Source: Bacillota bacterium | GTDB lineage: Bacteria > Bacillota > Dethiobacteria > DTU022 | Assembly (NCBI GenBank): GCA_030611385.1 | Contig: JAUWPV010000006.1 | Span: forward strand, 1 to 64,000 | Length of the DNA stretch: 64,000 nt | Direction of reading: 5' to 3' | In this document: positions 16,243 to 61,935 of the stretch, piece by piece | How the letters are laid out: each line of letters begins with the position of its first letter | Position numbering within the stretch: position 1 is the stretch's first letter | Position numbers and translations under genes: made by a program | The notes under the pieces: generated by a model | Databases searched by the model: none | Seen by the model: only the letters and a program-made list of their open reading frames with translations | What the model was told of the DNA's origin: nothing

Positions 16243-16278
16243 TGGAAATGGTTACTGTTATAGCGGGAGGCGAGAGTA

Positions 16279-17799
16279 ATCAGTAAATACATACTATCAA
16301 TAGATCAGGGTACCACCGGAACAACAGCGATTCTCTGGGATAAAGAAGGCCTCTCGCGAGCTGTGGTTAACCGAGAACATAAGCAATATTATCCACAGCC
16401 GGGATGGGTTGAACATGATCCTGAGGAAATCTGGCAAAATGTATTACTGACGGTTGAAAAGGTACTGCTGGAAGCAGGGTCAACCGCTGCTGACCTTGCC
16501 GCTGTCGGCATAACCAACCAGCGTGAAACTCTGGTATTTTGGGATCGCCGGACCGGTAAACCAATTACCAGGGCCATAGTCTGGCAGTGTCGCCGTACTG
16601 CTGAAATGTGCAGTGGTCTTAAAAGAGCAGGTCATGAGGAAGAGGTTCGCCGTAAAACAGGGTTGCTGCTGGATCCCTATTTTTCCGGAACTAAACTGCG
16701 TTGGGCTTTGGAAAATATTCCGGATGTAGCACGGGCTGCCGAAGAAGGTACTCTGGCCTGCGGAACTATCGACAGTTATCTGCTCTTTCGCCTGACCGGA
16801 GGCAGAGTTTTTGCCACCGATTACTCGAATGCTTCGCGAACTCTGCTCTATAACATCCACAGCTTGCAGTGGGATCCTGAATTGTTGAGACTGTTTGGTG
16901 TTCCGGTCGAAATATTACCAGAGGTTATGCCGAGCAGTTATAGCTATGGTGATACCGATCCGGAGATCTTTTTCGGCCAAAAGGTCTTGGTGGGAGGCAT
17001 TGCCGGAGATCAGCAGGCTGCACTCTTTGGCCAGGCCTGTTACAGCCCGGGAATGATCAAGAATACATACGGTACCGGATCTTTTTTACTGATGAATACT
17101 GGTGAAAAAGCGGTGATCTCAAAACAGGGCTTGCTGACTACAATAGCCTGGGGTATTGGTGACAAAGTTGAATATGCGCTCGAAGGAAGCATCTTTATTA
17201 CCGGAGCCGCGGTACAGTGGTTAAGAGATGGTCTCGGCCTGATTAGTAAATCTTCTGAGCTGGAAGGTCTGGCCAGGCAGGTTAATGATAATGAAGGAGT
17301 CTACCTGGTTCCCGCTTTTGCCGGGTTGGGCGCTCCCTACTGGGATCCTTATGCCCGCGGCCTCTTAATTGGCATTACCGGCGGCACATCGAAAGCGCAT
17401 ATTGCCAGAGCGGTTGTTGAAGCGATGGCTTATCAGACCAGGGATGTTCTTGAGGTAATGAGACGAGAAGCGGAACTGCCTCTGCAAGAGCTGAGAGTGG
17501 ATGGAGGAGCCAGTGTGATGGACCTGCTACTTCAGTTCCAGGCTGATATAACCGGGACAGTGGTCCGCCGGGCCGCTACTTCTGATACAACGGCCCTTGG
17601 CGCCGCTTATCTGGCGGGATTATCTTCCGGTTTCTGGAAAAATATCGATGATCTCTCCGGGCGGTGGAAACAGAGCGCTGTTTTCAAACCACAGATGAGC
17701 GAAACAACCAGGGAGGCGCTTTACACAGGGTGGATCAGGGCTGTAAAGCGAACTCTCTGCTGGGCTGCTGATCAGGATGATTCCGGCGGTTGGGATTGA
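16279..17799 (+). CDS. glpK: Glycerol kinase, apparently initiated at ATC
   Basis: Codons from ATC 16279 give (M)SKYILSIDQGTTGTTAILWDKEGLSRAVVNREHKQYYPQPGWVEHDP..., the conserved FGGY/GlpK N-terminus; no ATG/GTG/TTG in frame between stop TAG 16261 and this sequence; GGGAGG at 16265-16270. Confidence 0.88.
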   Translation: MSKYILSIDQGTTGTTAILWDKEGLSRAVVNREHKQYYPQPGWVEHDPEEIWQNVLLTVEKVLLEAGSTAADLAAVGITNQRETLVFWDRRTGKPITRAIVWQCRRTAEMCSGLKRAGHEEEVRRKTGLLLDPYFSGTKLRWALENIPDVARAAEEGTLACGTIDSYLLFRLTGGRVFATDYSNASRTLLYNIHSLQWDPELLRLFGVPVEILPEVMPSSYSYGDTDPEIFFGQKVLVGGIAGDQQAALFGQACYSPGMIKNTYGTGSFLLMNTGEKAVISKQGLLTTIAWGIGDKVEYALEGSIFITGAAVQWLRDGLGLISKSSELEGLARQVNDNEGVYLVPAFAGLGAPYWDPYARGLLIGITGGTSKAHIARAVVEAMAYQTRDVLEVMRREAELPLQELRVDGGASVMDLLLQFQADITGTVVRRAATSDTTALGAAYLAGLSSGFWKNIDDLSGRWKQSAVFKPQMSETTREALYTGWIRAVKRTLCWAADQDDSGGWD

Positions 17800-60888: not shown

Positions 60889-61113
60889 TTAATCGCCCCC
60901 GGACGGGTGGGAATAATTTATAACTATAGCGGTTATGTATATATTACCATGCTATTGCTTTGAGCACAATAGATATTTCAGGGCACCAGCGGAGTATTCC
61001 AATTTCTATTATAATAGATGATAATAAATAATGAGAATAACCGAACAAAAAGATTAGCTGGATTACAGAATACTTTTGTTTATTTAAAATGATTGTTTGG
61101 GGAGTGAATAACA

Positions 61114-61935
61114 ATCATCAGTAAAAATAGTGATGAACTTGATCGGGAGCTTATAGAAGAGATAAACCGCAAATATAAAAAAGGTGACCGGAAGTCTGAT
61201 TTTGCCGGCACATCTAAATTCCGGCGGTTTTTCCTCGGCCTGGCTGCTCTTTTTCTGGTTTTAATCTTTATATTCACTGTCACCGGGCGATGGCTATCGG
61301 TCTTTGCCGGGCCGGCTTTCCACTTCCTTCGGGAATCATGGGCTCTTTCTGACGATCCGCTGGTCCGAGAATTAAAAAAGTCAGTTGTCCAGATCTATGT
61401 TGAAACCAGTTCGGGGGCACCGCAGGGACAGCTACGCGGCAGTGGGTTTAATATCGATACCGCCGGATTGATCGTCACCAATCGTCACCTGCTTGAGAAT
61501 GCTGTTGCTGTAAGAGTTTCTTTTCCGGAGCTTGGCACATACAAGGCCAGGGAGTGGGTAGTTTCTCCTTATGTGGATCTGGCTGTTATACTGCTATTGG
61601 AGGCTGATGATCTGCCGGTTGTAACGATTTCCGATGTGCCTGCCCTGCACGGCGAAGAAATTCTGGTTATAGGCAACCCGCTTCAGTTTGCCCGTATCGC
61701 CAATAAGGGAGTTTTGGTCGGCTATCGTGATAACAGCGGTCGGGAAATGCCATTCCTGGTTGTTGAAGCCTCAATATACCCTGGCAGCAGTGGCAGCCCG
61801 GTTATTAATAAACAAGGTAAGGTGGTTGGAGTGATCTTCGCAACCCTGCAGAGTAGTGATCCAGCAGAAGTCAGGGGTTTGGCTGTCGACGCTGCCGAAC
61901 TAAAGCTATTCCTGGAAAAAGCCGCTTTTGATTGA
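61114..61935 (+). CDS. Membrane-anchored trypsin-like (HtrA-type) serine protease, apparently ATC-initiated
   Basis: In-frame extension of the 61468 ORF: (I)ISKNSDELDRELIEEINRKYKKGDRKSDFAGTSKFRRFFLGLAALFLVLIFIFTVTGRW...GSGFNIDTAGLIVTNRHLLENA...YPGSSGSPVIN. No ATG/GTG/TTG upstream of 61468 in frame; GGGGAG at 61099-61104; start ATC 61114 or 61117. Confidence 0.75.
   Translation: MISKNSDELDRELIEEINRKYKKGDRKSDFAGTSKFRRFFLGLAALFLVLIFIFTVTGRWLSVFAGPAFHFLRESWALSDDPLVRELKKSVVQIYVETSSGAPQGQLRGSGFNIDTAGLIVTNRHLLENAVAVRVSFPELGTYKAREWVVSPYVDLAVILLLEADDLPVVTISDVPALHGEEILVIGNPLQFARIANKGVLVGYRDNSGREMPFLVVEASIYPGSSGSPVINKQGKVVGVIFATLQSSDPAEVRGLAVDAAELKLFLEKAAFD

Follow-up and report, generated by a model that had tools for sequence, protein, structure and literature searches.

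Where does translation begin in a gene whose reading frame offers no ATG, GTG or TTG until it is already inside the catalytic domain? The question is raised by a gene for an HtrA-type protease in the window, by which is meant the whole 64,000-nucleotide stretch of DNA analysed here. The frame, which ends at 61935 on the forward strand, opens after a TGA at 61105-61107 and reads ATA ACA ATC ATC AGT AAA. Its first canonical codon is the TTG at 61468-61470, and a protease started there would lack its membrane anchor and the first part of its catalytic domain. The first-pass annotation had held that the frame listed from 61468 is truncated and that the true N-terminus lies upstream at an ATC. This is borne out by the frame, the transmembrane helix and the conservation of the upstream codons.

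The most likely extent of the gene is 61114-61935 on the forward strand, predicted to encode a membrane-anchored trypsin-like serine protease of 273 residues that is conserved family-wide. About 40 residues follow the ATC start before the transmembrane anchor (FFLGLAALFLVLIFIFTVTG, about 61228-61287, read in frame from the sequence), and the Trypsin_2 domain occupies 61438-61833 in the same frame (Pfam, E 4e-24). The domain contains the codons of the catalytic triad (His 61486-61488, Asp 61576-61578, Ser 61789-61791), which is invariant in 27 of 27 orthologs. A domain search gave no match to a PDZ domain in the protease, and the protein ends 33 residues past the Trypsin_2 match. In codons 2-118, upstream of TTG 61468, the comparison with orthologs gives 673, 494 and 1259 differences in codon positions 1, 2 and 3, respectively. 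This third-position excess indicates that the upstream stretch evolves as translated sequence.

Two adjacent ATC codons could serve as the start. The Shine-Dalgarno region GGGGAGTGA lies at 61099-61107, and measured from GGGGAG (61099-61104) the ATC at 61114-61116 is 9 nt downstream, while that at 61117-61119 is 12 nt downstream. The second had been proposed in the first-pass annotation, but the conserved spacing favours the first. In most family orthologs the Shine-Dalgarno motif is kept as GGAGTGA or GGAGTGG, with a normal distance of 6 nt to the start codon, and the TGA+9 position is ATC, GTT, GTC or, occasionally, GTG. Of 317 trained ATG starts, just 14 have register 12, compared with 54 for register 8. 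The conserved protease motif is GGAGTGA rather than GGAGGTGA, and its TGA part is nonetheless conserved; GGAGTGA pairs fully with the anti-Shine-Dalgarno sequence only if one base bulges.

A protease search of 60 related genomes yielded 20 genes from the same family with a complete start region, the window's own included. In 17 of these 20, there is no canonical codon at the aligned, Shine-Dalgarno-spaced start. The codons found there are ATC, GTT and GTC, with GTG or TTG rare and TTT seen once, and the usual layout is GGAGTGA (or GGAGTGG), mostly N6, then NTY. Orthologs outside the family start at ATT (two) or CTG (one), and also at TTG, GTG and ATG. About six starts were placed by eye; the others are fixed by the Shine-Dalgarno spacing and left no choice. 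Four orthologs (L008, L010, L014 and L020) have a potentially usable canonical codon nearby. A scan of genome contigs with the protease as query gave no match.

All 27 protease rows have T as the second letter of the start codon. At least 16 start-codon changes are required on a maximum-likelihood tree of the 27 proteins, with at least 10 at the first base and at least 10 at the third. An invariant middle T flanked by variable bases fits a start codon read by a CAU anticodon, if the middle pair alone is indispensable. The turnover between T and C at the third base could reflect transition bias instead of selection for weakness. Taken together, a start of the protease at the non-canonical ATC is well supported by these comparisons.

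The second case in the window is glpK, encoding a glycerol kinase of 506 residues (16279-17799, forward strand). Its apparent start is an ATC at 16279-16281 behind a GGGAGG Shine-Dalgarno motif (16265-16270), and there is no canonical codon nearby. Among 13 family orthologs, the aligned codon is ATC, ATA or ATT in eight, ATG in three and ambiguous in two; two members (L062 and L063) have a canonical codon nearby that is possibly usable. As a control, the same rule was applied to 77 glpK loci from a database search, three of which are family-like by identity. Outside the family, every retrieved locus had a canonical codon close to its start. The source organism, an uncultured bacterium, was identified through glpK matches to metagenome-assembled genomes that bear the label Syntrophomonadaceae. 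One public metagenome-assembled genome labelled Desulfovibrio sp. (L143, JAGUZX010000042.1) has the same glpK start region as family member G016, and its label looks wrong.

The protease and glpK share more than an ATC, and the common ATC-AGT-AAA context had been thought to matter. The protease orthologs, however, do not keep an AGTAAA next to their start codons. The window contains four copies of the 9-mer ATCAGTAAA where 0.5 would be expected, but half of these lie on the minus strand. The shared context is a coincidence.

Further genes of this kind were sought in a survey of coding potential and Shine-Dalgarno motifs covering 606 genes and some 800 kb of sequence, or about 45% of the genome, and six of the surveyed candidates were then compared in relatives. 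The gene for initiation factor IF3, infC, was examined in 19 family genomes and starts at ATT in every one, preceded by AGGAGGTGA-N6 or a near match to it, and its spacing from Shine-Dalgarno to start (GGAGGTGA-N6) equals that of the protease. CTG is the start of argH in 20 of 21 family members and of purS in 15 of 19; in the window's genome the argH frame begins at a CTG immediately after a stop codon. For a small protein with an S1 domain, the start is ATC or ATT in 22 of 30 cases, and the remainder have an ATG two codons downstream. The gene for a KorB-like 2-oxoacid:ferredoxin oxidoreductase subunit has ATA, ATC or GTA in 16 of 23, mostly ATA, and ATG in the other seven; an in-frame GTG within its Shine-Dalgarno motif is a possibly usable start. 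The start of larB is ATT, ATC or ATA in 25 of 28, with a nearby canonical codon as a possible start in L400, L401 and L413. In the rpmI control, each of the 33 loci found starts at ATG or GTG, and ATG starts are present among the outgroup copies of argH, larB and purS.

Ortholog-verified non-canonical starts thus number eight among the 606 surveyed genes, about 374 of which start at ATG. The view that AUC is truly used, and is not a one-off base error, is upheld by 17 of 20 proteases, 8 of 13 glpK genes and six further genes. At least eight genes of the family appear from these alignments to keep non-canonical starts (AUH, GUY and CUG) over many genera. The range is wider than was first proposed, since it also includes CTG, ATA, ATT, GTT and GTC, and the family seems to use these codons, together with AUC, as a matter of routine for the start of some proteins. 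An unsupervised genome-wide scan could not tell true non-canonical starts apart from noise. Both the genome scans and a joint alignment scan of two genomes were too noisy at one-codon resolution to yield a percentage for the whole genome, and the conclusions therefore rest on the ortholog-checked genes. The share of raw scan candidates was similar in G047, a relative from another family.

Several other loci were noticed during this work. In the window's own genome, a thymidylate kinase gene (L242:15779, contig C48) has an apparent ACG start (GAGGTGTTAAAA-ACG-CGC-GGT) and lacks a canonical codon at suitable Shine-Dalgarno spacing; it is possibly a case of a non-NTN start. Two genes in a glycosyltransferase region (L048:6600 and L048:13231, contig C40) have candidate ATA and ATT starts with strong Shine-Dalgarno motifs, and an MrpB-like antiporter subunit on the minus strand of L036 (contig C34) apparently starts at an ATC after AGAGGGG. 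In another genome of the family (G002, contigs C1 and C4, L351-L365), galU, rapZ, dapA and typA apparently start at ATT or CTG, and the set of non-canonically started genes may differ between genera. In G047 (L371-L390), which belongs to another family of the order, the candidates are a pilT-like gene with ATC, a Na/Pi-cotransporter-like gene with CTG and a LytS-like gene with ATA. The habit may therefore reach beyond the family.

How might such codons be used? The most probable reading, to which we assign a probability of about 0.82, is that the protease is translated from AUC 61114 and glpK from AUC 16279 by a clade-wide form of weak fMet initiation that is held in place by the Shine-Dalgarno sequence and is most likely sensitive to IF3. 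An ordinary fMet-tRNA(CAU) would mispair with the third base of AUC, and a strong Shine-Dalgarno motif at standard spacing would hold the initiation complex on the near-cognate codon. Initiation would be deliberately weak, and discrimination by IF3 against the codon would give a low output tied to the level of this factor. The use of fMet-tRNA, the low output and the control by IF3 are what we infer for these starts. Regulation by the IF3 level gains plausibility from infC itself, which has its ATT start throughout the family genomes examined, with the same spacing as the protease, so that both may respond to IF3. The protease start belongs to the class of codons against which IF3 discriminates, and it has a strong or extended Shine-Dalgarno motif, as in the class described previously (PMC5472188).

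The translation machinery bears on how general the phenomenon is. The initiator tRNA is ordinary (C1/A72, GGG/CCC in the anticodon stem, CAU), no obvious fidelity changes were seen in IF3, and KsgA was found in 59 of 60 genomes. The 16S rRNA was searched for and found in no family genome assembly.

The foremost alternative is that start-codon selection is generally relaxed in the clade, through the 16S P-site, IF1 or IF2, or a tRNA modification, so that AUH, CUG and GUY would be near-ordinary starts with no regulatory meaning. Such relaxation would account for the mixture of ATG and ATH starts that family members show in glpK and korB, and it is in keeping with at least eight verified genes in 606, biosynthetic enzymes among them. 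A precedent is the 16S rRNA mutation G1338A, which raises initiation at CUG in Escherichia coli (PMC11497404). Against this, nothing unusual was seen in IF3, KsgA or the initiator tRNA, most genes still start at ATG, and the retention of ATT by infC suggests that IF3 feedback still works. We consider general relaxation possible but rather unlikely. Weak, IF3-sensitive initiation could also be part of something larger. A tentative extension, which we would not presently favour, is that the family, or perhaps the order, has a shifted stringency in which AUC, AUU, AUA, CUG, GUU and GUC are standing, heritable starts in dozens of genes per genome, forming a regulon set by IF3 together with its own AUU-started gene.

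Alternatively, ribosomes might initiate at an upstream or overlapping canonical codon that is out of frame (the GTG of GGAGTG, or the ATG at 61089) and enter the protease by frameshifting or by termination and reinitiation. A short ATG/GTG mini-ORF does overlap the protease start in the window, and many orthologs have a GTG at -10. However, the mini-ORF is absent or lies in a different frame in L003, L009, L014, L015, L018 and L020, neither its length nor its stop is kept, and the GTG is part of the Shine-Dalgarno motif itself, which makes such a route highly improbable. A leader peptide, a frameshift and reinitiation were all considered for the protease and rejected, as their features are unconserved among orthologs.

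It is no more credible that the true starts are the downstream canonical codons, with the upstream frame open by chance. TTG 61468 is the choice of standard gene callers, but the 118 codons ahead of it, with their excess of third-position changes, are conserved as protein and encode the anchor and the first part of the protease domain, and the downstream canonical codons are not aligned among orthologs. Finally, although the genome is a 54-contig draft and single-base errors do occur, the loss of ATG codons at the protease and glpK sites through sequencing or assembly errors has a negligible probability and is already refuted by the orthologs, since 17 of 20 assemblies lack a canonical codon at the aligned protease site, as do many at the corresponding sites of the seven other genes, often with different codons, while rpmI in assemblies from the same set always has ATG or GTG.

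Weak initiation at AUC and similar codons, if it operates as proposed, has consequences for annotation. Gene callers normally accept only ATG, GTG and TTG, and thus N-termini, membrane anchors included, are lost. The comparative signature of a Shine-Dalgarno motif, a fixed spacing and an invariant middle T could reveal more such genes. The family also offers a natural system in which to study the evolution of start-codon discrimination, and to ask whether the IF3 level coordinates a set of genes. Single genes with non-canonical starts were already known; the surprise is their clade-wide recurrence.

Among the closest known systems is infC, which encodes IF3, starts at AUU, AUC or AUA and is autoregulated by its product. 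To our knowledge, conserved non-canonical starts other than that of infC have been documented for only a handful of bacterial genes. In E. coli, pcnB has a weak AUU start that lowers its expression. The protease resembles the infC type in its non-canonical start, strong Shine-Dalgarno motif and conservation over long distances, and the infC genes of the family share its spacing. Unlike infC, it encodes no translation factor, and its start codon varies between GUU, GUC and AUC from genus to genus. The protein itself is similar to anchored HtrA/DegP-like proteases (S1C) in its N-terminal anchor, Trypsin_2 fold and His-Asp-Ser triad, but differs in that no PDZ domain was found and in its non-canonical start.

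A search of the open-licence literature only, which is weak evidence, found no description of a family keeping at least eight unrelated non-canonically started genes over many genera. A published comparison of 36 genome triplets covered some 69,000 ancestral starts, of which only about six had switched to CUG or AUU (PMC5622118). The sigR gene of Streptomyces starts at GTC, or at GTT in two species, and is repressed by IF3 (PMC5472188). It is like the protease in its GUY start, extended Shine-Dalgarno motif, misread annotation and conservation within a clade. However, sigR is one gene in one genus, and repression by IF3 has been demonstrated for it, whereas for the protease such repression is only deduced. 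In Staphylococcus aureus, ccpN and cvfC1 start at AUA and AUU, respectively, with extended Shine-Dalgarno motifs (PMC13009471). Like pcnB, these are weak starts that lower expression, and the staphylococcal ones are conserved (PMC13009471). All three are isolated genes, whereas the present family appears to have at least eight such genes, including argH and purS with their CUG starts.
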